Positions 7,868 to 25,150 of a stretch of 64,000 nt of DNA are shown here, piece after piece. Source of the DNA: Thermoguttaceae bacterium (lineage in GTDB: Bacteria > Planctomycetota > Planctomycetia > Pirellulales > Thermoguttaceae). The translations under genes were made by a program, and so were the position numbers. Location: positions 124,001-188,000 of the forward strand of contig JANXBW010000003.1 in NCBI GenBank assembly GCA_025060325.1, written 5' to 3'. Within the stretch, counting starts at the first letter, position 1, and every line of letters begins with the position of its first letter. The notes under the pieces were generated by a model. The model did no database searches. It was not told where the DNA came from and was given only the letters and a program-made list of their open reading frames with translations.

Positions 7868-8235
7868 AGGCGCCAACACCCGCCTTTTGCCCGAAGACCG
7901 CAAGATCTGTCTCAGGGTCCTCCGTCGCTACCGCCAGGTGCACATGTTCTTCCGCTCCTTTTGCTAGAGCCCAGATGCGGCAACCGGAGGAACTTGATCG
8001 GCCATTAACGCCGGCAAACACGGAAGGAACTGGTGGTGGGCCAGCGGGCGCCTTCAGGTCAGTCCCAACGCCATCTTCCGGGTTAAGAAAGCCTAGTGCC
8101 AAGAGGAGGAGGCAGACGCCTTGGAGAGTTGGCCAAAAGGTGCCGGATTTTTCCGGTGTAGGTCTCTCGGGTAGAGGGCCGGCGGGTGAAGAAGACGCTC
8201 CGCGATTTTGGGCTGGTCCGGTGGCGGTGGACCTG
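7868..8235 (+). pseudogene. Decayed transposase remnant, copy A
   Basis: The plus strand encodes fragments of a helix-turn-helix protein in broken frames: RLLPEDRKICLRVLRRYRQV, stop codons, then SGRLQVSPNAIFRVKKA. The same segments occur on the minus strand at about 24500-24885 (CRLPEEGQIGLQIVRRDREV and HFQISSSTIFRVN). DNA similarity between the two loci is clear over several blocks, with about 50 bp extra in copy A. The shape (R..R..RE.QLALVLLLLQAG..SRWI...FQIS.STIFRV) fits the N-terminal HTH of IS630-like transposases, though the catalytic domain is not recognisable. It ends 22 bp before the MITE at 8258. Confidence 0.55.
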
Positions 8236-8651: not shown

Positions 8652-10772
8652 TTAAAACCCTCGGCCGAATGAGGGGCCGAAGCTGGGCACGGACATTCGC
8701 GGCAGCGGGGCCAACCGACCAGGGTCGACCGGCGCCCGCGCCGCGGGTGGGATAGGCGCCGATGGGAGCATTCCCTGGGGACCACTTGGCGTATGTCGCC
8801 AGGATTCCAGCAGAGGCGATGGCCGAGCAGCTTCCAACGGCGGCCCCTGCGGCATCGGGTCAACAACTGGCCGTTGCCGGGCGGGGTCATCTAAAGGGGC
8901 TTGAATCAACTGGCGGATCCGTTGCCGTTCAAGGGCGGCCTCCGTTCGCTCCCGCATCCGCTCTAGTCGCTCCGAAGAAGTTACGTCAGCAGGCTGCGGT
9001 GCCGAAGGCCCAGGGGCCGGTTCGCCGGGTTCCATCGGCCGCGAAGGGCGATTCGGGGGCGCAGGGGGCGCCGGCCCCGCATCGGGCGGAGTTTCCTCGT
9101 CAGGAGGTGGAGAAGGCTCGCTTTCGGCAGGAGTTTCCGGCGTTGGCCGAGGCATGTCCGATTGGGCCCCCGGTTGCGCCTGAGGCTGCGACGCATCGCG
9201 CGGCCAAAACGCCTCCTGCGCCCCAGGACCCACGCCGATGGTGTATCCGCGCTCTTGGCACCATTCCTCGGCTGCCCGGCGCAAGCGCGCATTGCCGGAG
9301 TTGAGGAATGTTTCGCCCATCTCTATCGTGCCGTGCCGCTCGAAGGCTTCGATAAGGTCGGGGATGACCTCCTCGCGGCCAATGCTAATAAGAGCGTAAA
9401 CGGCATGTTCGACGCGGCGGAACTCATTGGACCGCAGATCAGCAACGAGGACCTTCCGGGTCTGCTCCCAGTGTTCACGGAGCCAATCCCAGTGGCCACC
9501 GGCCACATGGTAGTACACCGCTTCCGCCTCCGTGCGCGGTTGCCACTCCGCTCGTTTGAGGATGTAAAAAATTTTCTGACGTTCTTTCCACTGCGGCATG
9601 CGCCGGGCAACGAACGGAGCGGCGCGAAAATCTCCGAGCTTGGCCAAGAAGGCAGCTGCCCTAACCGCTGCATCGGCCTCTTCGGTCAACAAGACTGCCA
9701 CAGCCTCGGCGGCTGCCGGCCCCAATTTCTCCAAAGTTGACCAATCTCCCTTGGCCAGTGCCCACCATGCTGCTTCCGTTTGCGTTCGGGGAGAATAGCC
9801 CACCTTGGCCAAGAGCTCCGCGGCTCGCGCCCGGGTTGGAGCATCCGGCATTCGGAGCCAAGTTAAAAGCGGCTCCACTGCCGAAAGGCCTAGTTGACTG
9901 ATTTGCTCTTCCTGACGGACGGGATCCCCGCCGGCCATGACCATGTCGACAATGGCCCGTGGAGTGGCAGGTCGGAAGCCCATTCGCGTCAACAATTGAG
10001 CTATTTGTGGTCGAAGCGAGGGACTTCGATCCCGCAGCCGGGCCGTCAGCGGTCCTATTCCCGCTTCGCCCAAGGCCTCTAGTCGAGCCCAATCTTCTGC
10101 TACCAAAAGCAAGTCCACCCGCTCGTCCATCCGCTCCGGTTCAAAGCCAATCTGGATCAGAAGTTGGGCCGCTTTTTTCCGCACAGACGCATCGGAGGAG
10201 GCAAGTTGTTCACGAAGGCGGGGGATAGCTTCCTCCGACAAGGCGCGCAAGGCTTCCACCAACGTCTGTTGCAAAGGCGGTTCAGCGTCCAAAGCATACT
10301 TAAGAAGCGGCGCTAAAGCCCGGCGGTCCGCCAGCTTTCCTAAAGATCGGGCAGCCGTCTGGCGGATGTACTCCGGAGTATCCGGGTTTTCCAGAACTTG
10401 GAAGATCCCATCGGCAGCTCCAGATTGTCCCAAATCTGCCAGGGCCTCAAGAATCGCCACTTGAACAACGGCAGGCGCTTGCGGCAGGCGAGAAAGGAGT
10501 GGCTCAACAACCCGGGGATCACCGATACGGCCCAATGCACGGATCACTACTGTCCCAAGCTCCGGCGAATCCAACTTGGTCATCAAAGGCTCGACTTCCT
10601 GCGGATCTCGCAAATCCCCCAGTACTTCCGCAGCGGCCTGTGCCGCGGTGACATCATTATCGTCCAAGCACGGGATCAACACCGGGACACACCGGGGGTC
10701 TTTCAACCGACCCAGCCCCCGGACGGCGACCCTCCGAATATCCGCATCTTCGTCCTTGAGCCGGGCGGCCAA
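8652..10772 (-). CDS. HEAT-repeat protein, C-terminal part downstream of an in-frame TAA
   Basis: The frame is continuous with the HEAT-repeat gene to its right apart from a TAA at 10800-10802. The first available start is TTG at 10772, inside a repeat unit and without a ribosome binding site, so independent translation is doubtful. It holds roughly ten more PBS-lyase/HEAT repeats (for example VRGLGRLKDPRCVPVLI, ALGRIGDPRVVEPLL) to about residue 500. A long Pro-rich, probably disordered tail then ends SFGPSFGRGF. HEAT arrays form protein-binding superhelices. I read 8652-12140 as one gene of about 1,160 codons broken by one nonsense codon, with a substitution, a sequencing error or readthrough all possible. 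Confidence 0.7.
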   Translation of the reverse strand: MAARLKDEDADIRRVAVRGLGRLKDPRCVPVLIPCLDDNDVTAAQAAAEVLGDLRDPQEVEPLMTKLDSPELGTVVIRALGRIGDPRVVEPLLSRLPQAPAVVQVAILEALADLGQSGAADGIFQVLENPDTPEYIRQTAARSLGKLADRRALAPLLKYALDAEPPLQQTLVEALRALSEEAIPRLREQLASSDASVRKKAAQLLIQIGFEPERMDERVDLLLVAEDWARLEALGEAGIGPLTARLRDRSPSLRPQIAQLLTRMGFRPATPRAIVDMVMAGGDPVRQEEQISQLGLSAVEPLLTWLRMPDAPTRARAAELLAKVGYSPRTQTEAAWWALAKGDWSTLEKLGPAAAEAVAVLLTEEADAAVRAAAFLAKLGDFRAAPFVARRMPQWKERQKIFYILKRAEWQPRTEAEAVYYHVAGGHWDWLREHWEQTRKVLVADLRSNEFRRVEHAVYALISIGREEVIPDLIEAFERHGTIEMGETFLNSGNARLRRAAEEWCQERGYTIGVGPGAQEAFWPRDASQPQAQPGAQSDMPRPTPETPAESEPSPPPDEETPPDAGPAPPAPPNRPSRPMEPGEPAPGPSAPQPADVTSSERLERMRERTEAALERQRIRQLIQAPLDDPARQRPVVDPMPQGPPLEAARPSPLLESWRHTPSGPQGMLPSAPIPPAARAPVDPGRLAPLPRMSVPSFGPSFGRGF

Positions 10773-10799
10773 GGCGTCAAACGCCCGCGCATCAGCCAG

Positions 10800-12140
10800 T
10801 TAGGCCAAAGCGCTGACGGCATGCCAACGGACCTGTTGACTCCCGTCCGCGCACATTGTGATCAGCGTGTCAACAGCGCGGGGGTCTGCCAGTTTTCCTA
10901 ATGTCTCCGCCACCTTCCCCCGAACAAAAGGATCTTTGTCACCGGCCAGGGCGAGCAGAGGTTCTAAAGCGACGTCTCCCAGCTTGAGCAAAGCTCCCCA
11001 ATCCTGCTTTGCCAAATAGAACTCTGCCGCCTGGCGAGCCGCCGGCGGGGCCCAACCGATCTTCTCTAATACCTCGGCAGCTAGTTGACGAACCGCGGCC
11101 TCTGGATGCACCAGACGCTTGGTAAGTGGCTCGATTGCCGGCTCACCAATCTGAGCCAAGATTGCCGCTGCCGCTTTTCGTTGTTGAAGATCAGTTCCCC
11201 CCAGACATGCCATTAGGGGTGCTACCGCGGCAGGACCAATCCGAACAAGGAGCCAGGCCGCCAATTGCCTTCGCGACTCGTCTTCACTTCGAAGTCGCTC
11301 GATCGCCGGCCCGACAGCTAACTCGCCAAGCCGCACCAACCCGGCAGCCGCGTGCCGCCGAAGCTCCGGATTTTCCGAATCAAAGCAAGCCAGAAGGGGT
11401 TCCGCAACCCGGACATCCGCAATAGCTCCCAAGGCCACGACGGCGCTTACCCGCACTTCTTGCTGCTTGTCCTGAAGGGCTGCCGTCAAAGCGTCCACAG
11501 CTTTTGGATCACCGATTACGCCTAGCGCCTCGGCGGCCGCCTGCCGAACCGTCCAATCCTCATCCTGCCGCAAACTCCGGATAAGCGGCTCTACCGTTGT
11601 CGGCTGGCGAAAGCCCGCAAGTGCCTGCGCCGCCGAACGCCTTACGCGCCAAGCGGGGTCTGCGAGCATCTGTGTCAGTGGTTCAACCGCCTGGCTATCG
11701 CCGATTTGACCCAGTGCAACGACGGCCAGTTCCCGCACTCGCCAATCGGTGTCGGTCAAACACTCGAGCAACGGCCTTACGGCCGGAGCACCTACGTTAA
11801 CAAGAAGGTGCACAGCCCGATTTCGTCGCCATAAAAACGGGGAACGAAAGTCCCGAATCCACTGCCTAACCTCAGGCGGGGGTGGGGCCGGCACACCGGC
11901 CTCGGTGGACGAAGTTTCTGGCACCGAAGCTTCATAAGGTTGGTTACCGGCAAATCGGGTATCCCCGGACTGTTGGCCCCCGTCCGGTGGCGGTTGGCTA
12001 GCAAGGGCCGATACGTGCACAGCCAAAATGGCCCCCATCAGGCCAAACAGCGCGAAGAAAGCGGCGAGCTTTGTCACAAGATTAAGGCCCCGTCTCGTTT
12101 GCGCTTCCTTCGAAGGAGGAAGTAGAAATACCGGCTCCAT
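10800..12140 (-). CDS. Membrane-anchored HEAT-repeat protein, N-terminal part ending at an in-frame TAA
   Basis: Start ATG at 12140 with GGAGGG about 8 nt upstream, chosen over an upstream in-frame start at 12350. Residues ~19-45 are a hydrophobic signal/anchor (LAAFFALFGLMGAILAVHV). A short Pro-rich linker follows, then about ten HEAT/PBS-lyase repeats such as RELAVVALGQIGDSQAVEPL and RQAAAEALGVIGDPKAVDAL. The frame stops at TAA (10800-10802) in mid-repeat, directly after VRWHAVSALA. The next codons, LADARAFDALAARLKDED, complete the unit exactly, so an ordinary sense codon is expected there (GAA by pattern). It probably acts as an envelope scaffold. Its partner is unknown; the PEGA protein gene lies just upstream. 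Confidence 0.8.
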   Translation of the reverse strand: MEPVFLLPPSKEAQTRRGLNLVTKLAAFFALFGLMGAILAVHVSALASQPPPDGGQQSGDTRFAGNQPYEASVPETSSTEAGVPAPPPPEVRQWIRDFRSPFLWRRNRAVHLLVNVGAPAVRPLLECLTDTDWRVRELAVVALGQIGDSQAVEPLTQMLADPAWRVRRSAAQALAGFRQPTTVEPLIRSLRQDEDWTVRQAAAEALGVIGDPKAVDALTAALQDKQQEVRVSAVVALGAIADVRVAEPLLACFDSENPELRRHAAAGLVRLGELAVGPAIERLRSEDESRRQLAAWLLVRIGPAAVAPLMACLGGTDLQQRKAAAAILAQIGEPAIEPLTKRLVHPEAAVRQLAAEVLEKIGWAPPAARQAAEFYLAKQDWGALLKLGDVALEPLLALAGDKDPFVRGKVAETLGKLADPRAVDTLITMCADGSQQVRWHAVSALA

Positions 12141-12482
12141 GCCTGAGCCCTCCGTCAAAGGTTGGGTTGTGGAAAAGTGTTTTACGATCGACGGTATTTT
12201 TCTCCGTGGACGCAGGCACGGTCGGGATCTTCCCTTCTCTTTAGTCACTGCCGCACCTTCAACAGGTGACTGATGCCGGAGAGAAGGATCCCGAGCGTGC
12301 TCACAAGCGCTCTGAGTGCGTCGAAACTGTAAGTTCCCATTGCCCCACAACTACTAAGTACACGCTTCACCCCGAGTAGGAGTGCGCCCCACCCCTGGCT
12401 ATCCGTAGCGCTCAAAACACGCAGCGAACTCCTAAAGTTGTCCCGCAGGGGATCGAGAAGAAGGGGCCTGTGTCCGGGAAGC
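12141..12482. other. Gap between PEGA-protein and HEAT-protein genes
   Basis: 342 bp separate two same-strand genes. The HEAT ribosome binding site (GGAGGG) is at its left edge. No further gene, terminator with a T tract or repeat is evident. Either read-through from the PEGA gene or a separate promoter is possible. Confidence 0.35.
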
Positions 12483-13370: not shown

Positions 13371-14471
13371 GAGACCTCCTTTTACAACCTGACCTGCCAC
13401 CAATCCTTACCCACGCACCTAGTCCGACAACACTTGCTTGGCGACGTGTGCCCGGGCACATCGGAAGGGCAGGAGGTCGAACCCCCCGTTTAGCACCTTG
13501 TAGAAAGCTGCCTGCCGGATCCCGGCCGCAACGGGCGGAAACTCCGGACCGCCCAAGGGGCACCCAAAACGCTTGCCAACGCGGAGACACCGGGATACCA
13601 ATTGGCCCTGGGACGTACAACGTAGCCAGTGACCGACGGGAAGCACGCAAACAACACGCAAACCAAAACGCGACGCCTTTGGGTTGGGATCTACCTCCCT
13701 GCCCTTCTAACAGTTAAGACGGGCGCAGACCGTTGCAGTTGCGCAAAAAACTAGGGACTTCGCTTATGGGTTCATCGAAGGACGTGCCCGCGGCCAAAAC
13801 CCGGTACGAGTAGGGCCGCGACCACCGACCGCCTTCGCCGCAGGACCTCCGGCCACCGTTGCAGAACATGCGATAACCTGCAAGCAAAAAGAATCTGCGG
13901 AAAGAATTGGCATAGAATCCGGTGTTCGCAAACTTCCAGGGTGAGAGGCCCTTGTTCTTCTCACCCCGCTCCCTAACGCCTGGTATTTTTGCCGATGACA
14001 ACAGGCCATTTTCCTCCCAAGGTCGTCCTGGTTTCGGGAAACGACTACCGAAAAGTTTGGCACACATGTTGCTAAAACGCCCCGTCTGCGATTCGGGAAC
14101 GTTACATGTCGGTAATGCCTGCGCATGAAGCTTAGCACCACGTGATCGTCCCCAAGCGTGGCGAATGACCATTTCGAGCATTCCCCGGATTGGCCAGGGT
14201 AGCTTTCGGAAATAGCCGTTACGCATATGAATGTAAGCAATACTCTTGAATGTAAGCAATACTCTGGCATTTTAGCTCGCGCCGAAAAGAGATAGTTCTC
14301 ACGCGTGTGGATGCCAGGAACCGGGACAAGGACCTCAAGCGGATTTCGGCCATCGTAGTTTCCAGGGCTCCTCCCTTGCCTACAACTTAAGCTCTTATCG
14401 GTGTCGACACACTCACCGAAGTCTTGGCTAATGTTTTTCCCACCAAAAATCGCACAGCTGAGGAGTTCTCA
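13371..14471. other. Gene-poor region with a 19-bp tandem duplication
   Basis: About 1.1 kb between the divergent PEGA and metallophosphoesterase genes. Overlapping leftward frames at 13714-14270 lack start signals and known domains; I do not call them genes. A perfect tandem duplication of TGAATGTAAGCAATACTCT lies at 14228-14265. Promoters for both flanking genes should lie at the two ends. Confidence 0.4.
14228..14265. repeat. Perfect 19-bp tandem duplication
   Basis: TGAATGTAAGCAATACTCT occurs twice, head to tail, at 14228-14246 and 14247-14265. It lies in non-coding DNA about 200 bp upstream of the metallophosphoesterase start. Slippage or a paired protein-binding site could produce it. 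Confidence 0.8.
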
Positions 14472-15428
14472 ATGAGACGGGTTTGCCTCGGTGTTGAGAA
14501 GGAAGAAAAGCTCCACATTGCCATCTTCGGCGATGTACACGGCCATCTGCGGCTTATGCTCCGGCTGTGTCGCGAGTGGCAACTTGCACACAGGACACGA
14601 CTAGACGCCGTGTTGATTTGCGGCGACCTCGGGTTTTTCCCCGACAGGGCGGCTCTCGATAGGGCCACCATTCGCTTTGCCGAAAAAGACGCGGAAGAGG
14701 TAGGCTTTGCCCTCTACTTTGCCCAGCCTCAACCCCTGATGAAAGATCCCGCTGTAGACGAAATCTTGTGCGGACCCACGGACTCTTTGGGAACGGTTTC
14801 TTGTCCGATGATTTTTTGCCACGGCAATCACGAGGATTTCCACCGGCTGCGAACTTATGCCGAATCCGGTCCACTTACGCCTGTGGACTACTATGGCCGG
14901 GTGCACTATCTCCGAAGTGGCTGCTGCGTGGATATTGCTGACCTGCGGGTGGGAGCACTCGGCGGTGAACCCGAATGGACTGGCTGCGCCCCCGCTCAAC
15001 TTGTTGATAAATGGGTAAGCCCCGATGGGGCAAAGGCCCTAATGGCTGTTGGGGATTTCCACGTCCTTCTCAGTCATTCACCGCCGCGCTTTTATCCGCG
15101 ACAGGGTCACATCGGCTCGGAACTTGTTCAAACGGTGATCGACACCTGCCAGCCGGCCTATCACTTTTTCGGCCATGTGCGGTATGTTTGCCAACCGCAG
15201 ACATTTGGCCGATGTCAAAGCTTCTGGCTACAAAACGTGACCTTTCGGCCCGAAAAAGGCGGCAAACACCCACCGGACAAGCAGTGCATGGGGATCCTTA
15301 CCTGGCAGTCGCCTACAAAGCACTCCTTCCAGTATGTAGACGAACCCTGGTTTGAGGCCATCCACCACCGCAACTGGTGGCCGCCGTCCCCAATACAACT
15401 GTCCGAACCCCAACAACACCTTAATTAA
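14472..15428 (+). CDS. Calcineurin-like metallophosphoesterase
   Basis: 318 aa from ATG 14472, preceded by GAGGAG 7 nt upstream; a longer TTG start at 14424 has no such site. The five metal-binding blocks are in order: GDVHGH (~20), GDLG (~54), GNHED (~128), LSHSP (~201) and FGHV (~236). This is the complete dinuclear metal site of the family. A Cys-rich stretch (RSGCCVDIADLRVGALGGEPEW) lies between blocks. No signal peptide, so cytoplasmic. Relatives cleave phosphodiesters or phosphomonoesters in nucleotides or RNA ends; the substrate cannot be assigned. It appears monocistronic. Confidence 0.85.
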   Translation: MRRVCLGVEKEEKLHIAIFGDVHGHLRLMLRLCREWQLAHRTRLDAVLICGDLGFFPDRAALDRATIRFAEKDAEEVGFALYFAQPQPLMKDPAVDEILCGPTDSLGTVSCPMIFCHGNHEDFHRLRTYAESGPLTPVDYYGRVHYLRSGCCVDIADLRVGALGGEPEWTGCAPAQLVDKWVSPDGAKALMAVGDFHVLLSHSPPRFYPRQGHIGSELVQTVIDTCQPAYHFFGHVRYVCQPQTFGRCQSFWLQNVTFRPEKGGKHPPDKQCMGILTWQSPTKHSFQYVDEPWFEAIHHRNWWPPSPIQLSEPQQHLN

Positions 15429-16624
15429 CACTTGGGAGTAGCTGGCCTACAGAGCGGTAAAGCAGGTACACCGCCCCTCTTTTTATGCCCAACATGCCAA
15501 GCAGCGCCGACCTTGCCCACCCTTGCCACTGACCAGTTTCGGGAGATTCGTGGCCCAAAGTCGCTAGCTCGGACTTACCTTTCTCTCGTTCCTTATTTAA
15601 TTCGCGCAAGACCGGCTAGCCTGCGATCCACCAGTTTCCCCACGGTAGCTGGAGACCCTTCCGCCTCCCGATCGCAAACTTCTTTTCGATTTTTGAGCTC
15701 CTCCGCCAAACTCACTGAAAGCTAGCCCGGGCCACATCTACCGCCGATCTCTTTTCTTCCCTTCGCCGCTAGTGATGGCCAACTCAGCTTTTCAAGTGTT
15801 TGTCAACAGCCAGAATCTTGTTCAGCCACCATCCACATACCCCGACCGTGAACGATGTTGACAGCCGGCGGGCAAAAGCAAAGCATGCATAAACAAGCCG
15901 AGGGACCAAATGCGATCATCCCTGAAATCAACACATTTGCGTACAACAACAACCGGTCCGGCTTATCGGGTTTAAACAACGACAGGAAGCGTTTTGGTCA
16001 ACAACGAAAGTGTTTAATATTAGGCCGTGTTTTCGAACACAAGAACGAAAACGGTTAGTTGATTTTTATAAAAAAGTGTGGCTGTACACAAAATTTCATA
16101 AGGCCAAACAAGCATCAATAAAGTTAAGCGTAAGATAAGATCCACATAAACAGCATCGTCGTAAGTTGCTATTCTACAATGCGTTGCGCTCATTGGCGCG
16201 CTCAGTAAATCGTTCACAAGACGTAAACTGACAGTGAGCGCCTTTATGAACATCTTTGCGCACAAATTCGTGCACAAAAGCCACGATAACCCGACACAAA
16301 CCCATTCGGAGGGCTGGTTAGAAGCCTAAAAAATTTTTTATTCCTTGAAAACTTTGAACCCGTTAGTACGTATAGAATGAGTAGAAGTAACTCACAAACC
16401 AACCGGCTCTTGCCGCAATCCCAGGCGGGCTGTCCGATAGGAGCCACCAATGCCCTTAGCTCTCGCCCAAGCAAGGGCCATGGGGCCTTTTAAGGTCCGA
16501 GGAGATTATCGTTACTCTTAAATTGCCTGGAGTGCAAAAGAGGGCAGCGCAACAAATCGGCAGGCGACGACAATCGCACAGGGGTTTTGATCCAAAGTGT
16601 AGTGGCAATTTGGAGGGATTGGCT
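15429..16624. other. Intergenic region with AT-rich segment upstream of the zinc-finger/helicase cassette
   Basis: About 1.2 kb with no recognised gene. From ~15850 to 16480 it is clearly richer in A and T than the surrounding sequence, including runs such as AAAAAATTTTTTATTCC near 16327. A short hairpin with a UUCG-type loop (GTGTT-TTCG-AACAC) lies at 16027-16040. A TATAGA box near 16370 might serve the downstream cassette, but its spacing to TTGAAA near 16345 is about 20 bp, not ideal. The base-composition shift at the cassette boundary is compatible with acquired DNA. Confidence 0.45.
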
Positions 16625-18520
16625 ATGTCGCGCGTGTTGAGTGCCCCGTCATCGACAATGAAGAAAAGCACGCCTCCGGGGGTTAGGGCCAACAGCGCCT
16701 GCGCCACAGAAAGCTCTCCCCCGGTCCAAGTTAAGGCCGTGATGGAAGAAGGCACCTGGAATCTCTCGGTCCAAATACTTCCTCCTACCGCTGGCTACTT
16801 GTTGCAAATTTCATGCAATGGCGAGCCGGCTACCCCGATCGTCCATCAATCGGGGTCGTGCACCATCAAACAATTGCCGGTGATCGTATCGCTCCGCAGC
16901 CGAGAAAACCCCCAGCAAGTTCTTTGGGAGTCGGTTTTGCCGCCCTCTGACGAGCAATATCTGGTGCTTGAGCTAACAAGCGACTATCAGGCGGTCTTGA
17001 GACCGGAGTCTCTGTGCAAAGGTAACTGCCTGATACTGGCACCTGAAGACTCCACGATCACCCAAGGATGCCCAGGCATCCACGTAATTAGCCGGGAACC
17101 CACCGCCATTGACGGCTGGGTCGCGTACCGGGCGGTTGTTCCCGAGTCCCTCGCTCGCGGAATAGCGGCTAGCGCCGGAGTAACCCGCTCGCGTTTTCAC
17201 CGCACAGCAGGCAACAACCGCCTGAGCATCCGGTCGCCAAGAAGACGAGTAAGATTCAGGATCCAGGGAAAATCTGAGTTTGTGTTGATCGACGGAGAGC
17301 GCCTTCAGATCAACTTCAATTCCTCCAACTGGAAGACGTTAACCCTTTTTTGTCTCCCTTTCGGCCGCAAGGGAGTCTCGGAGGAACGCCTTATCGAGGC
17401 GCCCACGGCCCGCACTGTCCCGGAAGCAATTGCTGATGTTCTCCAACGCCATGGACCAGGTTACTACTGGTTGGGGCTAAGCGGTATACCGATCGGGAGT
17501 GAGAAAGAGGTATCCCCTTCGTTCCGCGTGGTGTACTTACCTTGCATCCATGGCATCGAGTTGGATGTGAATTCTCAATTGGCTTGTGCCGAATGGGACT
17601 ATCCTCTTTGTTTGGTCATTAATCATGACCCCTGCGTGCGCGTGCGTAGCTCCGATAATTACAAGGTGGTAGCGGAAAAAAACATCACCAAAATTCTTGT
17701 GCGGGCAAACCGGCGAGTTCAAAAGGTAGCGATTACTATTGAAGATACTCATTCGACCCTTCTTCCACCTGTCACAATTCATGTCAAGGTGGGGCGATTC
17801 TGGTGGGCCCTCGGCACCGAAGAGCGGCCGACTGAGGAATGGAATTTTCGCCCCATAAAGTTGCCAATTGAAAAGCTGATCGCGGGATCGCGTGAGGGCT
17901 TGTGGATTCGCTTGCCCGAATACGAACGAACGCGAATTGCCCAGTTGTGTCTAGAAACAAAAGATGGGCAGGTCATCTGTAAAGAGCGTGTCAACCCTCG
18001 AGAAGAGGTTTTTTTCCCTTTCCGCAATCTAGAACATTTGAACGACCCCTCGGATCCTTACGACGATTTGATCTATTTGCGTGTGATCTATCGCAAGAAG
18101 TGGAGGTTTCCCAATCTGCGGGCGGCCATAGGTTGGGTCGAGGCGCGATACAGGTGTAAAACATGCACAAATGTCTTTCCCAGCCGGGAAGAGGTAGTCG
18201 ATCACATCCGCGCCGCACACCGTGACGCTTTTTTTCGCGACTCGGTTACCATCCCCAGTCGCTTGTACGTGTGTGTGCAGTGCGGAAAATTCGCCACCGA
18301 GTCCCAAAGCGAATTGGACGAACACTTCAAGAATCAATGTCGTCAAAAGCGACAACGGATTGTCACTGATCCTGAGGAAATTTCGACCCTACTGAGGACC
18401 CTACCGGGTGCTCGTCGCCAGTGTACCTTGTGTAACAAAGTTGTCAAAGATCCAGATACGCATTTAATGGAGCACATACACACACTCTATGAAGTGATTG
18501 GCACCTCCGGGGATACGTGA
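16625..18520 (+). CDS. Unknown beta-rich protein with three C-terminal C2H2-like zinc fingers
   Basis: 631 aa from ATG 16625, with GGAGGG about 7 nt upstream. The N-terminal ~480 residues are rich in alternating beta segments with no family I recognise. Three finger-like motifs follow: Cys511-X2-Cys514-X12-His527-X4-His532, a textbook C2H2; Cys550-X2-Cys553-X13-His567-X4-Cys572; and Cys600-X2-Cys603 with His613, His617 and His619. Classical C2H2 fingers are uncommon in bacteria and suggest nucleic-acid or protein binding. The gene is followed after 90 bp by a DUF1998-type helicase on the same strand, so the two probably form one operon in which this protein may recognise the target. Function is inferred from context only. 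Confidence 0.8.
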   Translation: MSRVLSAPSSTMKKSTPPGVRANSACATESSPPVQVKAVMEEGTWNLSVQILPPTAGYLLQISCNGEPATPIVHQSGSCTIKQLPVIVSLRSRENPQQVLWESVLPPSDEQYLVLELTSDYQAVLRPESLCKGNCLILAPEDSTITQGCPGIHVISREPTAIDGWVAYRAVVPESLARGIAASAGVTRSRFHRTAGNNRLSIRSPRRRVRFRIQGKSEFVLIDGERLQINFNSSNWKTLTLFCLPFGRKGVSEERLIEAPTARTVPEAIADVLQRHGPGYYWLGLSGIPIGSEKEVSPSFRVVYLPCIHGIELDVNSQLACAEWDYPLCLVINHDPCVRVRSSDNYKVVAEKNITKILVRANRRVQKVAITIEDTHSTLLPPVTIHVKVGRFWWALGTEERPTEEWNFRPIKLPIEKLIAGSREGLWIRLPEYERTRIAQLCLETKDGQVICKERVNPREEVFFPFRNLEHLNDPSDPYDDLIYLRVIYRKKWRFPNLRAAIGWVEARYRCKTCTNVFPSREEVVDHIRAAHRDAFFRDSVTIPSRLYVCVQCGKFATESQSELDEHFKNQCRQKRQRIVTDPEEISTLLRTLPGARRQCTLCNKVVKDPDTHLMEHIHTLYEVIGTSGDT

Positions 18521-18610
18521 GCAGCGCGTCTATCAAGCGTTCTTATTCCGTACGCCTGTGCCAGGTTCAATCGGTTGCGGATTATATTCGGATGATGGAG
18601 GGGCATCACG

Positions 18611-21600
18611 ATGAGATACTACCAAGTTGCCCAAGAAGTCGTACGACGTTATAGGCAGTATCTTTTGTCGACCTTCGCTTTCCGCGATCCGGAGCTGCGC
18701 CAGGCATTTGAGCGGGCATTGGAGACAGAGTCTCTGGCCAAAGGGCCATTTGTGGAGGCCACCCCAAACTTTGTCCGCGGGTGCACTGCTGCGCAACTTC
18801 TGAGGGAGCTCCTCGGACCCGAGGCGGATCCAGGGTTTATTTCCGCCCTGGGGGAAGACCGCAGACTTTACCAACACCAAGAGCAGGCCATCCGTGCTGT
18901 GTGTGCCGGTCGCAATGTAGTCGTAGCCACTGGGACAGCAAGTGGCAAGACCGAGGCTTTTCTTTTCCCCATCCTCATTGAGCTTTATCGTCAACATTGC
19001 CGGGGGAAGCTCGGGCCCGGAGTGCGGGCGTTGATCCTTTATCCGATGAACGCCTTAGCCTATGATCAACGCGAGCGGCTACGGCGATTGGCCCGTCGAC
19101 TGCTGGAGGCGAAAAGTCCCTTCCGCTTCACCTTTGGCCAGTATGTGGGCGATACTCCCGAAAACGAGAAAGACTCTGGTGGCGAAGAGCTCCAGATACA
19201 TCGGGAGCAACTCGGTCATACTCTCATTAAGGACGGCCGAGTTGTCCACGGCGAAATGATCTTCCGCGACGAGATGCGCCGCAATCCCCCGCATATTTTG
19301 TTGACCAACTACTCAATGCTTGAATATCTGCTTCTGCGTCCAGCCGATAGTCCCTTTTTCGATCGCGACGGCGCCCGCTGGTGGTCGTTCATCGTCCTCG
19401 ATGAGGCCCACCAATACCGCGGCGCCCGCGGCGGCGAAATGGCCATGCTTTTGCGCCGTCTGAAGCAACGCCTGCGGGAGTCTCACCAGAGCGTGCAATT
19501 TCAATGCATCGCCACGAGTGCCTCGCTTGCCGAAGGTCACGCAGCCCGGAAATCCGTCGCCGAATTTGCGGTAAAACTATTTGGAGAATCGTTTCAAGAA
19601 GCGGATGTCATCCTGGGAGAAAGCCAGCCCCTTCCCCTACCCCCAGATAAGCAGTTGTTGAGCGAGGATTACCAGCTCCTCGAAGCTATTGTCAACGGCT
19701 CGGCGAACGGTAGCTGCCAGGATCTTGCCCGGCTGTGTGCCAGACTGGGGATTGAGCTTCCGGAGGATTCGGCCCCGGAGGTGCGGGTAGGCCGGATCCT
19801 TCTCCAAGACCGGCGGATGTGGGAGCTTCGCAACCGACTGGAGGCCGAACCCGTAGATTTCCGCCAGTTGGCAGATTCCCTTTTCCCAGAAATCCCCGAG
19901 GAATCCCGGAGTGAGTCGCTCGAACGGCTCATTCACTTAGCCGTACGCTCTCTCGATCCTCAGTCCCATGCCCCGCTTTTGGCAGCGCGATTCCACTTGT
20001 TTATCCGTGCGCTGGAGGGGGCATACGTCGCGACTTACCCTCAAAAGCGTCTGACCTTATCGAAAGGGGGAGGCGAAACAGGCGGGGTCTTTTTCGAGGT
20101 GGCCGTGTGCACCGAATGTGGGCAACATTACTTCGTGGGAAAACAAGACCCGGAGACCAAGAAATTTATGGAAGCAGTCCGTGACCCCGCCCTTAGTGAC
20201 TTCGGGTTGACTTACTTGTGCCCTGAGGATGCATTTCGAGTAGACGTCGACGAAAGCCTTGATGCGTCGCTGGAAAAGGGCAAGGCTCCTTCGGTAAAAG
20301 CGGAAGATGACGAGAAGCAACTCTGGAAGCCCGCGGTCCTTTGCGGAAAATGCGGCTACCTCCAGGAAGCAGAACAGGGGGACTGCCTGTGTCCTTCGGA
20401 AACTGAAATCCGCGTTCGTGCCTTGAAGCTTACCCCCGAGGACTACCTAAATAAACAAAGAAAGCTCCGTGCCTGTCCCGTGTGTGGCGCAGTTGGCACA
20501 AGAACCGAACCGATCCGTGAATTTGTCCACGGAAGTGACGGTCCGCACGCAGTGATCGCCACAGCACTCTACCAATTTCTCCCACCGGATCGACGGAAAG
20601 TCCTCGCTTTTGCTGATAGTCGACAGGAGGCAGCCTTTTTTGCCTGCTACTTAGACCACTCGTACGAAACGCTCTACGAGCGAAATTTGCTCTACAGAGC
20701 TTTGGCAACATTCGTGGACGCGGGAATGACGCAAGTGAGCCTTCAAACCTTGGCAGATCGGGCCATCCAGGAGTTTTCTCAACTCTGGGAGTTTAAACCC
20801 TCCGAAGATGACAGTAGCCGCAAGAAAAGGATTTGGCGGGCGATTTATCGCGAGCTGATCACGTCCGACCGTCGCCTTTCTCTAGCCGGTGTCGGACGGG
20901 TGCGCTGGAGCGTGGACCTCCCCAAGGCAGTGCAAGAGGTGCTGGAGAAAAGGGCCAAAGATTTTGACCCCATTCCTCCACAGGAGCTTGCTCAGCTTAT
21001 CCAGCAAATCGTTCTTCTTGTTTGTCAACACCGAGCAATCGAACTTCGTGTCCCACGACAGGTAGCGCTCAGTTGGAACGACCTCGATATCATAGGCAAT
21101 CAATGTTGGTACAAGATTGGGAGGCCTCATGGCGACCGAAGGGTGCGGAGCTGGGACGGTGACAAATCGCCGATTGTTGACTATCTGATCCGGATCCTCC
21201 AGGCTTGTGGTGGCCCGGTCAACGGTTCGGCATATTTGAAGCAGGCTCAAGAAATTGCCCGAAATGTCTGGGAGCTGTTGACGCGCACCCCCGGGGGAAC
21301 TTATCGACTGCAAGATCTGGTTCTTGTTCGGGCCAACCAGGGAGTGCGAGTAAACCCGGATTGGATCCGAATAGAAGCCGTTCAAATAGGCCAAACCCTT
21401 TTCCGCTGCGAGACCTGTGCGCGGATTGCCGGTTTTTCCGTGCAAGCGACTTGTCCTCGAAAGGGCTGTCCCGGACCCTTGCGACCCATTGGTATCGATG
21501 AACTGGCAACAAACCACTACTGGCAAATCTACCAGGCCGATCTGCCAGGACGTCTGCGGGTGGAAGAACACACGGCCCAACTGGAAACAACAGTGGCACG

Positions 21601-23485
21601 CTCTTTCCAGGAAGATTTCCAGCACGGGAGGATTCACGTCCTCAGTTGCTCAACCACCTTTGAGGTGGGCGTGGATTTAGGCGATTTGGATGTCGTATTC
21701 CTCCGAAATGTCCCCCCGGAAAGTTTCAATTATGCCCAGCGAGTGGGACGCGCAGGGCGACGAAGCGGCTATCCGGGACTGGCTGTCACCTTCTGTGGAC
21801 GAAGGTCTCACGACATCTATCACTTCTATCGTCCGCAAGCCATGCTCCGCGGTCGCACGGCAAGCCCGGTGCTATGGCTGGAAAGCCCCCGACTGGTCGC
21901 GCGACATATGACTGCTGTCGCACTCTCGGCCTTTTTCCGCAAGAACCCCGATCGCTTCGGCAAGCTCGTCGATTTCTTCAAAGATCTCAAAAGACCATCT
22001 GCCGCCAAGGCGTTACTCGATTTCTGTCAGAAGAACCCGCAGGCCCTTCGAGAGCATCTCAAAGCCGTTGTGCCATCTCAGCTTCACAAGGTGTTGGGCT
22101 TGACCGACAACCGATGGCCCCATTTGATTGCCGGAAAGGGCTTTACCGTCATGGGACGGCCGGTTCGAAACTTGGTCGATGCGGAGTGGGAACTCGCTGC
22201 CGATTGGGTCGCGCTTACGCAATTCCAAAAAGCTGCCACAGATGCCGGAAGGTGGAAGCAAGCCCAGTGGGCGGAAGAGCGCCAGAGGACCATTGCCAAC
22301 ACGGATATCCTTACGTTCCTCTCGCGGAAAGGCGTGATCCCCAAGTATGGTTTTCCCGTGGACGTTGTTGGCCTCGATCTGATCGACTCTCTTAGCACCG
22401 ATGTCATCCTCGAGCGAGATTTATCTCTTGCGATCGCGGAATTTGCGCCGGGAGCCACGGTCATTGCCAACAAAAAAGAGTGGACCTCTCTGGGACTGAA
22501 AGTTGTGCCCGAAAAGACTTGGCCTATCTATCGCTACCAGAAAAACTCAGCGGACGGCTCGTTCCAGCGAGTCCCCAAGGAGGAGCAAACAAGTGGAGGC
22601 CCGGGTTCGCCGTCACTTCGCTTGCAATACATAGAGCCTATCTTTGGCTTTGTGGGCAAACAGGAAGGGGAAAGGCCTGTGGTACGGCCGCCCCGACTCT
22701 TCGTGACCCGACCCTATTTTGTGGACTTCTATTCAATCGGCACTCGCCCCGGCGAGGTGAGCGGCACCGCCCAGTGCTTGCCCAACGAGCACGACTTTGG
22801 GAGCGTTCGCATCAAGGAGGTTTGCCCCGGCAGCTTGGTCATCTTGTGTGAAGGTTTTCGTGGGAATGGGTTCCTTATCTGTCGAGATTGTGGCGCGGGA
22901 TTCGCCCAAGCGCCCGATCACCAGCACTCGACCCCGCTTGGCTCGAAGTGCGAGGGGATCCCCGAACGGTTTGCGCTCGGTCACGAACTCATTACGGATG
23001 TTCTCCATATTCAGTTTACATTGCCGGCGGCACCGGCCAACGGCTCGCCGCGCGGCTTGGCGGAAAGCCTTGCTGCGGCAATCTTGGAGGCCGCCTCCGA
23101 CATCCTGGAAGTGCCTTCAAACGAACTTGGCGTTACCATCTCTAGCCCCGGCAGCGGTTGGCAGGTGCCGGCCATCGTCCTTTACGACAACGTACCCGGG
23201 GGAGCGGGTTTGGTGGCGGCCCTTCAAACATTTTCAAAAATCCGAACCTTGTTGGAAGAAGCTCGCGCCCGACTTGACGGGTCTTGCGGCTGCCATCCAG
23301 AGACAAGTTGTTACGGTTGTCTGCGAAGCTACCGAAACCAGTACGCCCATCACCTGCTCAAACGGGGTCCCGCCTACGAGTATCTCTCGGATGTGTTGAC
23401 GAATTTGAACCCCGCCCCGGAGGCAGCAGGCTCCCCAACTTCGCAACCCACTCAGGCTTCTATCCCTCGGCCGTCCTATCTCTAG
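18611..23485 (+). CDS. Large DEAD/DEAH helicase with DUF1998/MrfA-like Cys cluster
   Basis: 1,624 aa; ATG with GGAGGGG about 8 nt upstream. Superfamily 2 motifs are complete: Walker A GTASGKT (~108-114), PTRELA-equivalent LILYPMNALAYDQ, DEAH (~264-267), TSAS motif III, FEVGVDLGDLDVV motif V and QRVGRAGRRSG motif VI (~1043). Several CXXC knuckles occur in the middle (CTECGQHYF, CGKCGY, CPVCG, CETCARI). The C terminus has the four-cysteine cluster of the DUF1998/MrfA group, CGCHPETSCYGCLRSYRNQ (~1558). The layout matches COG1205 (YprA-like) helicases, which act in DNA repair (MrfA) and occur in phage-defence loci (DrmA/DrmB, Druantia DruE). The length and the zinc-finger partner suggest a defence role over housekeeping repair, but that is inference. 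Confidence 0.9.
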   Translation: MRYYQVAQEVVRRYRQYLLSTFAFRDPELRQAFERALETESLAKGPFVEATPNFVRGCTAAQLLRELLGPEADPGFISALGEDRRLYQHQEQAIRAVCAGRNVVVATGTASGKTEAFLFPILIELYRQHCRGKLGPGVRALILYPMNALAYDQRERLRRLARRLLEAKSPFRFTFGQYVGDTPENEKDSGGEELQIHREQLGHTLIKDGRVVHGEMIFRDEMRRNPPHILLTNYSMLEYLLLRPADSPFFDRDGARWWSFIVLDEAHQYRGARGGEMAMLLRRLKQRLRESHQSVQFQCIATSASLAEGHAARKSVAEFAVKLFGESFQEADVILGESQPLPLPPDKQLLSEDYQLLEAIVNGSANGSCQDLARLCARLGIELPEDSAPEVRVGRILLQDRRMWELRNRLEAEPVDFRQLADSLFPEIPEESRSESLERLIHLAVRSLDPQSHAPLLAARFHLFIRALEGAYVATYPQKRLTLSKGGGETGGVFFEVAVCTECGQHYFVGKQDPETKKFMEAVRDPALSDFGLTYLCPEDAFRVDVDESLDASLEKGKAPSVKAEDDEKQLWKPAVLCGKCGYLQEAEQGDCLCPSETEIRVRALKLTPEDYLNKQRKLRACPVCGAVGTRTEPIREFVHGSDGPHAVIATALYQFLPPDRRKVLAFADSRQEAAFFACYLDHSYETLYERNLLYRALATFVDAGMTQVSLQTLADRAIQEFSQLWEFKPSEDDSSRKKRIWRAIYRELITSDRRLSLAGVGRVRWSVDLPKAVQEVLEKRAKDFDPIPPQELAQLIQQIVLLVCQHRAIELRVPRQVALSWNDLDIIGNQCWYKIGRPHGDRRVRSWDGDKSPIVDYLIRILQACGGPVNGSAYLKQAQEIARNVWELLTRTPGGTYRLQDLVLVRANQGVRVNPDWIRIEAVQIGQTLFRCETCARIAGFSVQATCPRKGCPGPLRPIGIDELATNHYWQIYQADLPGRLRVEEHTAQLETTVARSFQEDFQHGRIHVLSCSTTFEVGVDLGDLDVVFLRNVPPESFNYAQRVGRAGRRSGYPGLAVTFCGRRSHDIYHFYRPQAMLRGRTASPVLWLESPRLVARHMTAVALSAFFRKNPDRFGKLVDFFKDLKRPSAAKALLDFCQKNPQALREHLKAVVPSQLHKVLGLTDNRWPHLIAGKGFTVMGRPVRNLVDAEWELAADWVALTQFQKAATDAGRWKQAQWAEERQRTIANTDILTFLSRKGVIPKYGFPVDVVGLDLIDSLSTDVILERDLSLAIAEFAPGATVIANKKEWTSLGLKVVPEKTWPIYRYQKNSADGSFQRVPKEEQTSGGPGSPSLRLQYIEPIFGFVGKQEGERPVVRPPRLFVTRPYFVDFYSIGTRPGEVSGTAQCLPNEHDFGSVRIKEVCPGSLVILCEGFRGNGFLICRDCGAGFAQAPDHQHSTPLGSKCEGIPERFALGHELITDVLHIQFTLPAAPANGSPRGLAESLAAAILEAASDILEVPSNELGVTISSPGSGWQVPAIVLYDNVPGGAGLVAALQTFSKIRTLLEEARARLDGSCGCHPETSCYGCLRSYRNQYAHHLLKRGPAYEYLSDVLTNLNPAPEAAGSPTSQPTQASIPRPSYL

Positions 23486-23924: not shown

Positions 23925-24499
23925 CTCGGAGGCAATAGTGCAAGCGGAAAAAGCTTAAAGATCAGACGTCCGTGTATAAAAGTTCAAAAACGTGTGGACC
24001 CAGTGCTGACGGTTGGCGAAGAAGACCTCCACCGTCATACGTCCGGGACTATTCCAGCCGCGATAGCGCTAGCGATAACCGGCAGCATCGAAAAGCCAAT
24101 ATCCCATGTCCCTGCCGCAGAGTGACGATCAGTACACTTGGAACAATTTCAGCGCGCAAATGAGCCGCCTTTCCGTCGGATACGCATGATGATAAATGAG
24201 ATAGCGACAGACGCTGTACAGAACGATCATCCGCTATTCGTCGCTGCGGCAACCGCCCGTCACCGACTCGACCAAGCTCTAAGGACGAACAATTCGGTGG
24301 CGGAACACACAGAAATTCGATGTTCTCCACGACCGGCGGTTGTTCGACCACGTGCCCGCGGCAAAAAGCCTTTGGTTGGCCGAAAGGATACTGCCCCGAG
24401 CAGGCCCACCACCTCGGGCAGCTGAGGAGCACCGACGCGACACTCACCACAACGCCTTTCTCCAGAGCCAGGGCCGACACCAGCGGACAAGCCTAAAGC
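23925..24499. other. Non-coding region left of transposase remnant B
   Basis: About 575 bp without a supported gene. Leftward frames through this stretch may be remains of the C-terminal part of the transposase, but no catalytic motif can be recognised. Confidence 0.35.
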
Positions 24500-24885
24500 G
24501 GACAAGCGTAAAATCGCAGGGCGTTTTCTCCACGAGCCACCCCAGCACCCACGCCAGCCACACTGGCAAGAGCTAGGGCTGTCATGATTGGCTCCCCCAA
24601 GGCTTGTGCCACACCCCCTTGGCGAAACACTTAATTGACGCGAAAGATGGTGCTGGAACTGATCTGAAAATGCTCGGTGATCCATCGGGAGCTGCATCCC
24701 GCCTGGAGCAAAAGCAGCACCAAGGCCAGTTGCACCTCGCGGTCGCGACGAACGATCTGGAGCCCGATCTGCCCTTCTTCGGGCAAACGACACTTTGTGG
24801 GTACTACATTCCGTGGCTCGGCTTCCCAGTCTCTTAGCCTTTTTCCAAGTAGTGCGACCCCCACCCAGGGCCAAGGTTTGTTGTT
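24500..24885 (-). pseudogene. Decayed transposase remnant, copy B
   Basis: On the minus strand an N-terminal HTH reads clearly: CRLPEEGQIGLQIVRRDREV, QLALVLLLLQAG, SSRWITEHFQISSSTIFRV. An in-frame TAA follows, and then VFRQGGVAQALGE, the usual continuation of an IS630-like HTH module, before the frame degenerates. It is the better preserved of two homologous loci (the other is at 7868-8235). No terminal inverted repeats could be assigned with confidence. Confidence 0.6.
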
Positions 24886-25150
24886 TGACAATACCGAGTT
24901 ACGCTACCAGCGCTCTCCTTTCAGCCCGGAGCAATTTAGCGCGCAAATATCATCGCTCTGCTGATGATTGCATTTTGGGTCGTGATTACCGTTTGGGTCC
25001 CCGGGGCGTGGAATAAACGTGCTGCTAACCACGGTGCGCGCCACGAAAGGGAATCGAGTTCTTTGATTCCGCATTGCCGCCGGGATCAGTGGCCCGATTG
25101 GGCAGGGTGCCTTGCCAAACGGAGCGGAAAGCAGTAATTTTTTGACTGTG

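Follow-up and report, generated by a model that had tools for sequence, protein, structure and literature searches.

A zinc-finger protein encoded beside a DruE-like helicase in a Thermoguttaceae bacterium: a candidate relative of Druantia type III

Results

A zinc-finger gene and a giant helicase gene lie 90 bp apart

The window analyzed here is a stretch of 64,000 nucleotides from Thermoguttaceae bacterium GCA_025060325.1 (contig JANXBW010000003.1, 124,001 to 188,000 of the forward strand), and all positions refer to it. Two genes follow each other on its plus strand with a gap of 90 bp. The first (16625–18520) encodes a 631-residue protein, hereafter the finger protein, made of a beta-rich core and three C-terminal zinc modules; we propose it as a sensor and as the equivalent of DruH. 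The second (18611–23485) encodes a DruE-like SF2 helicase of the YprA/MrfA family, with 1,624 residues. The listed ORF of the finger gene opens at a TTG (16523), and the ATG at 16625 is preceded by a GGAGG ribosome-type site; the helicase gene also has its own GGAGG-like site. At the local base composition, the chance of so long a frame from the given start is about 2e-11 for the finger gene and about 5e-28 for the helicase gene. An earlier note on this DNA had described a finger protein and a DEAH helicase of these lengths and spacing, and the frames, ribosome sites, helicase motifs and shuffles bear this description out.

The first zinc finger (residues 509–532; 18149–18220, plus strand) has the arrangement Y509-x-C511-x2-C514-x3-F518 ... 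H527-x4-H532 and agrees with the full C2H2 consensus (C-x2-C-x12-H-x3-5-H with its hydrophobic core). Module 2 (residues 550–572; 18272–18340, plus strand) is a variant of the C2HC type, formed by C550, C553, H567 and C572. Module 3 (residues 600–619; 18422–18481, plus strand) is a C2H2 variant with C600 and C603, followed by H613, H617 or H619. Neither the strict C2H2 pattern nor a set of three loose zinc modules arose by shuffling the finger protein (0/20,000 for each). In addition, Pfam gave matches to zf-C2H2_4 (E 2.8e-4, 21.8 bits) and zf-C2H2 (18.8 bits), both under the gathering cut-offs. Zinc binding by the three modules is predicted from these patterns. In eukaryotic DNA-reading finger arrays, the linkers are roughly seven residues long. 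Because the spacers between the modules of the finger protein are longer (17 and 27 residues), sequence reading in the style of a eukaryotic array is not their obvious function.

The earlier note had taken both proteins for a candidate defence-like system. PADLOC profiles agree for the helicase, which they name as DruE, and leave the finger protein unmatched: no PADLOC or NCBIfam family was found for it at E<=1. For comparison, the same PADLOC library detects the DruH of M. parvus at 1356 bits.

Surroundings of the gene pair

Upstream of the pair, the GC content is 44% at 16001–16500, in line with the AT-rich stretch pointed out before; the remaining 500-bp steps between 13001 and 30501 have 50–64%. 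Downstream, 23604–24221 matches contig C12 of the same genome in two pieces (69–73%), which are separated by 45 bp in the window and by 831 bp on C12, so that sequence was either lost or gained in one of them. About 790 bp of the C12 homolog are present only there. Further on, 24497–24891 gave 10 further matches (69–78%) at about seven places in the genome, one of them at 7886–7981 of the window, together with a sub-threshold match to a resolvase-type HTH in Pfam, as would be expected of a decayed repeated element. The damaged-looking gene and decayed transposase reported downstream of the helicase can be recognized in this rearranged copy and this degenerate repeat.

Among nine other window proteins, PADLOC returned only weak phosphoesterase (E 8e-5) and HEAT-repeat matches, and hence no defence island is evident; for the small ORFs at 15432, 24052, 24263 and 24634, the scan used Pfam alone. 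Two adjoining HEAT-repeat proteins (8652–12350, minus strand) match PADLOC HEAT-ARM models, probably as generic repeats. Between PADLOC and a set made of the finger protein and five neighbors, there was no match to druA-D, DruF, DruM, DruG or DruL. No tRNA was found in the window, and a scan for consensus promoters and terminators gave fewer sites than shuffled sequence. A pair of 21-nt direct repeats flanks the region (13782 and 24350; 19 of 21 identical, BLAST E 0.008) and was rejected as an element boundary because it is too weak.

A metallophosphoesterase gene lies upstream of the finger gene (14424–15428). Three observations led us to discard it as a third component. A 58% paralog is encoded elsewhere in the genome and not beside a finger gene; among 40 genomes in the order, only its own was found to have it; and no match turned up in the stretches analyzed for the two other carriers of the finger family described below, G320 and G114 (whose contig stops within the ATPase gene). 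On a Marinobacter plasmid (L064:2434-6794), a metallophosphoesterase gene is located directly upstream of DruH-DruE; its product resembles the window protein only marginally (E 0.02).

The helicase groups with Druantia helicases

The helicase motifs are intact, with Walker A at residue 106, DEAH at 264 and QRVGRAGR (motif VI) at 1043. Pfam recognizes DEAD, Helicase_C and, at residues 1487–1571 (23069–23323, plus strand), the zinc-binding MZB/DUF1998 domain (PF09369, 44 bits). The chain stops 53 residues past MZB (1571 of 1624), which leaves no C-terminal nuclease domain. In agreement, no nuclease domain was recognized in the helicase by Pfam or in the finger protein, and the C-terminal PLD of Druantia III is not present. 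Seven DruE models head the PADLOC matches of the helicase with 350–549 bits (DruE1 549), as against 62.5 bits for the best DrmA. Its NCBIfam matches are far below cut-off (best 129.5 bits, cut-off 874).

We built a maximum-likelihood tree of 22 YprA-like helicases with a midpoint root, in which some branches are long, inner forks are partly open and the placement of G382 is unsure. The window helicase falls on the Druantia side, inside a group of 13 rows (100/100) that is split from the E. coli ARMADA row. This group also holds two loci with annotated DruA and one DruH locus, that is, helicases of Druantia I and III. Within it, the window helicase forms one clade (100/100) with those of G114 and G320, the latter being represented by a C-terminal piece from another contig taken as the same gene. 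G061 and G134 join this clade next (96/97), then G377 (98/98). The other side of the tree contains, besides the E. coli ARMADA row, helicases of planctomycetes; two of these (L040, L043) are encoded beside methyltransferase-type genes. By its sequence, the helicase is a Druantia-side DruE relative of the YprA family. According to the text of PMC12458937, helicases of the Druantia Type III-like branch most frequently have no nuclease domain, and we infer that the window helicase belongs to this branch.

Matches to the helicase at E<=1e-50 were found in 16 of 392 Planctomycetota genomes, its own included; the two genomes of the same family that were searched had none. The absence from both suggests that the gene was gained or patchily lost, as defence genes are. 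A chromosomal MrfA was rejected on the tree placement and this patchy distribution; together with the DruE scores, they agree with the assignment of the helicase to a defence branch.

Other helicases of this type were encountered. The same genome encodes a second YprA/DUF1998 helicase of 1,696 residues on contig C51 (L006:2549-7639). In the tree it falls on the ARMADA side, with an unsure placement because its branch is long; by eye, the tail at its C-terminus resembles a nuclease of the Vsr/DUF559 type. In G052 (L043), a YprA-like helicase gene follows genes for a type IIG restriction-methyltransferase and an OLD-family nuclease. The L043 helicase and those of G169, G277 and G373 form a well-supported planctomycete clade of ambiguous class.

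The finger family keeps a core and exchanges its ends

Relatives of the finger protein occur in three of the 392 Planctomycetota genomes, own included; two of the three carriers are fragmented assemblies. In 3/3 carriers, the gene immediately precedes that of a helicase from one and the same subclade (100/100). The two-gene unit proposed earlier is supported by this linkage. As to the expectation that the pair would recur in defence islands, the co-occurrence holds in all three carriers and the islands were not seen. Between the window and G114, identity-type values are 26% for the partner and 44% for the helicase, the partner changing faster.

The G114 member, at least 1,411 residues long, joins an SMC-type ATPase at its front to the core at its C-terminal end. 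Its ABC signature lies at 599 and Walker B is near 627, and the core starts at about 819; the contig stops within the ATPase gene. This ATPase matches PADLOC LmuB (E 2.7e-9), and in Pfam it has sub-threshold matches alone, to DUF4337 and SMC_N (E 0.14). G114 shares the finger region with the window protein: the CxxC of modules 2 and 3 and one His of module 3 are found in both, and the second Cys of finger 1 is a His in G114. The G320 member has a long front before its core, disordered by eye, and no CxxC in the entire protein; its gene runs 4 bp into the start of the helicase gene. Since G114 fuses an ATPase and G320 has no fingers, the fingers appear as an optional module and the beta-rich core as the conserved part. 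Judged from these three sequences, the fixed part of the family is a beta core with the motif WWAL...E...W, and the end modules are exchanged. Target recognition by the fingers, as the earlier note had imagined it, is made less attractive by the one member in three without any CxxC and by the spacers of 17 and 27 residues.

Further searches returned the same few carriers. With the single finger protein as query, two carriers (own included) were found among 294 genomes of the phylum; the class of G114 (9 genomes) and that of G320 (29 genomes) yielded just those two members, and a search around G320 gave two of 392 genomes, both already known. Scans that rely on short exact patterns, which distant members can escape, found no relatives in viral contigs or in plasmids; among genome contigs, scans of this type gave no match with the single protein and one with a 2-row alignment, by its length and score the G114 contig. 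A few kb upstream of the G320 system lie genes for two similar proteins of about 205 residues (L035:10961-11575 and L035:12118-12738), HEPN-like by eye and without a PADLOC match.

The core contains a predicted Ig-like domain

AlphaFold modeling of the entire finger protein on three rows reached a pLDDT of 39, and the piece covering residues 303–495 (17531–18109, plus strand) is the usable part. This piece holds the motif RFWWALGTEE..EEW and was predicted by AF2, on a 3-row alignment, as beta modules with a pLDDT of 74.6 and a pTM of 0.64. The first module (about residues 303–392) resembles an Ig-like domain: with VIA-align, residues 306–392 best match nectin-3 (Z 7.3, rmsd 2.9 over 80 residues), and nearly all rows listed for the 303–495 model are Ig-like sandwiches. 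Foldseek gave no match to this model at E<=0.001. Because the Z score of 7.3 is below the reliable range of the tool, at a level that it calls common, and the best Foldseek E is 0.021, the Ig-like match is support rather than proof. DruH (9tud) was absent from the best 50 rows of either structure comparison, which is uninformative both ways. Overall, the finger protein is predicted to have at least one Ig-like domain, at about residues 303–392.

Upstream partners of neighboring helicases and their link to DruH

Helicases of the neighboring branches have a different upstream partner, here called family B, present in G061, G134 and G377 (HMM E 7.7e-10 for the latter) and, more distantly, in G382 (BLAST E 2e-4 to 4e-4). 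These proteins have 705–1,381 residues, a conserved N-terminal region and no finger trio; G061 and G134 contain a WAL motif. PADLOC named none of the four planctomycete partners at E<=1. The G061 partner was found in one of 119 genomes, its own source, and not in plasmids; a WYL regulator gene lies close upstream of the G061 pair on the opposite strand. On two cyanobacterial plasmids (L045:1474-12312 and L048:2325-12201), a DruE-like helicase gene comes after two or three genes, one of which encodes a protein with a weak family B match (E 1e-4 and 3e-3, respectively). The L045 protein has a long coiled coil in front and weak PADLOC matches to JetC/LmuB; the L048 gene has no PADLOC match.

A DruH profile was assembled from eight proteins of plasmid records (1,103–1,155 residues), leaving out a truncated ninth (L065). 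No DruH relative was found in phage records, and among the ORFs of eight viral-contig helicases, none matched the finger family (A), family B or DruH at E<0.1. Family B (three rows) aligns with the DruH profile, N-terminal region against N-terminal region, with a score of 40.9 (E 0.0017; 0/100 column shuffles reached it; reversed 20). With two rows, the score is 34.6, and with six rows it is 30.7 (reversed 24.4 and 17.0 for the six rows, unshuffled). The finger core compares with DruH at a score of 28.1 (E 0.035; 0/100 shuffles; reversed 18–19), its residues 40–145 aligning with 402–495 of the M. parvus DruH. Compared with two, three and six family B rows, it scores 28.4, 25.7 and 25.5 (reversed 15–22), values that were reached by 0/150, 1/150 and 0/100 shuffles, and the similarity lies in the region of the WWAL motif. 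The shuffles have their limits: one set came within 0.6 of the observed score, another exceeded it once, and column shuffles ignore strand periodicity. In hhalign, the finger core gives E 0.03–0.07 per single comparison with DruH or family B, at a probability under 2%.

Models of the WWAL motif were searched against 466 listed ORFs, overlapping and repeated ones included, and tie single members of each family only. In one direction, G134 was the top outside match (E 0.038) and G061 only about seventh (E 3.8). In the other, it was G114 (E 0.1–0.25). Here an unrelated ORF had E 0.25, and the best 40 rows contained neither the window protein nor that of G320.

Two views of the finger protein have to be weighed on this evidence. 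It may be unrelated to DruH, a beta-rich replacement partner that senses differently and resembles DruH by analogy only. We regard this as unlikely, yet it is the strongest of the alternatives: the finger protein has no PADLOC match at E<=1, the hhalign E values reach only 0.03–0.07, and the three family members differ in their end domains. On the other hand, forward profile scores exceed the reversed ones in all comparisons and nearly all shuffles, and the best outside match of the WWAL models is a member of the other family, a thin argument given the rank of G061 and the close unrelated ORF. Furthermore, the finger protein and the family B or DruH partners occupy the same gene position. Because the weak scores combine with this shared position and with the helicase phylogeny, common descent of the finger core and DruH is fairly likely and the better guess.

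Discussion

By analysis of its sequence and relatives, we favor, with slightly better than even confidence, that the pair is a rare two-gene anti-phage or anti-plasmid system working like Druantia type III, with a rebuilt sensor. The finger core would probably take the place of DruH as its trimmed and rebuilt relative, and the pair as a whole would be active in defence. How Druantia recognizes phage is only beginning to be known, as the accounts in PMC13192584 and PMC13316683, both of 2026, indicate. Section 13 of PMC13192584 describes three Ig-like domains in DruH, presents it as the likely phage sensor, and reports that its nicking is enhanced by a dimer and that mass photometry revealed no stable DruH-DruE complex; section 9 gives the preference of DruE for 3' single-stranded DNA. 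According to PMC13316683, the DruH-DruE interaction is needed for defence, and the M. smegmatis pair, without canonical nuclease domains, blocks phage DNA circularization and replication.

Extrapolating from this published DruH-DruE work, the core of the finger protein would recognize a phage product, either a phage protein or structure or an abnormal nucleoprotein, and the zinc modules may help hold nucleic acid or a protein partner. The helicase would then be brought to the 3' single-stranded DNA of replicating foreign DNA, stalling, blocking or unwinding it. Cutting is possible even though no nuclease was recognized, because E. coli DruH is reported to nick DNA in a family annotated only as YjiT-like (PMC13192584), and the authors of the M. 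smegmatis study speculate that the DruH-DruE complex degrades phage DNA (PMC13316683).

A bolder form of this reading, which we hold as possible but short of even confidence, is that the locus represents a new Druantia type, in which a modular Ig-like sensor core swaps its end modules and the fingers guide a YprA helicase. Taken jointly with it, and just as tentatively, the modules would be an SMC/LmuB-like ATPase in front and a C2H2 trio or a finger-less end behind.

The fusion in G114 allows another reading, a three-part system composed of an SMC/LmuB-like ATPase, a finger/beta core adaptor and the helicase, of which the window copy would be reduced or partly lost. The ABC signature, Walker B and LmuB match (E 2.7e-9) of the fused ATPase speak for it, as does the cyanobacterial plasmid protein that joins a coiled coil to a family-B-like part near a DruE-like helicase. 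However, no such ATPase adjoins the pair in G320 or in the window, and a start and a ribosome site of its own serve the finger gene of the window; we consider this reading improbable. Still less probable is a MrfA/YprA-type DNA-repair helicase beside an unrelated neighbor and outside defence, since the MrfA-like domains and the surroundings without recognized defence genes that would suit it are outweighed by the tree and DruE scores, the patchy presence (16/392 genomes at E<=1e-50, 0/2 of the same family) and the finger-family linkage kept in 3/3 carriers.

In the literature library searched, no text joins Druantia and C2H2, and no description of the pair was found. The main text of PMC12458937 mentions no C2H2, ABC, SMC or YhaN, and the helicase may sit unremarked in the tree of that survey. 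A helicase of the same type with a smaller, differently decorated partner would show which parts of the sensor are essential and which are swapped. If the reading as a Druantia III-like system with modular ends is true, the known components of YprA-based defence would grow by an SMC/LmuB-like ATPase and by C2H2 modules with several fingers, and the window would hold a bacterial antiviral sensor in which eukaryote-style zinc fingers guide a YprA helicase.

Comparison with known systems

The ATPase fused to the G114 core resembles LmuB of Lamassu in PADLOC, but no LmuB-like ATPase lies beside the window genes. With ARMADA, the locus has the YprA-Druantia lineage in common, as presented in PMC12458937; it differs in that no BrxHII or PglX homolog was found among the neighbors scanned and that the helicase is off the E. 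coli ARMADA row. DISARM shares a helicase core and a DUF1998 of the same superfamily. There, they are split into DrmA and DrmB, whereas here they form a single polypeptide; no methyltransferase was found among the neighbors scanned, and the DrmA score is 62 bits as against 549 for DruE. DISARM and ARMADA were both rejected on these scores, the neighbor gene content and the tree. Among the neighbors scanned, there was neither a DrmM methyltransferase, which DISARM has in addition to its split DrmA and DrmB, nor a match to the genes of Druantia I (DruA-DruD) or Druantia II/IV (DruF with DruM/DruG or DruL; type IV as defined in PMC8565338). The claim that no DISARM, ARMADA or druA-D/H homolog is recognizable among these neighbors stands, but not the design distinct from Druantia that had been drawn from it, since the helicase is a DruE relative and the partner-first layout is that of Druantia III.

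The DruE-type YprA helicase of Druantia is present, according to its DruE scores and the tree; beside it, where type III has DruH, lies a protein with weak profile similarity to DruH only. The finger protein is not named DruH by PADLOC. It has 631 residues as compared with 1,103–1,155 for DruH (n=8), lacks the helical end regions described for DruH and carries three C-terminal zinc modules. The family B loci are similar in their neighboring-branch helicases, their upstream partner and the weak DruH-like profile match of this partner. With Druantia III itself, the locus shares a two-gene layout in which the partner precedes a YprA-family helicase that carries DUF1998. It also shares Ig-like domains in the partner, described for DruH in PMC13192584 and predicted for the finger protein, and a partner more divergent than the helicase, as the same paper gives for DruH and DruE. 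The nearest forms are Druantia III systems without a helicase nuclease, including that of M. smegmatis, for which PMC13316683 reports a 17-bp overlap where the window has a 90-bp gap, and a helicase of 1,667 residues.
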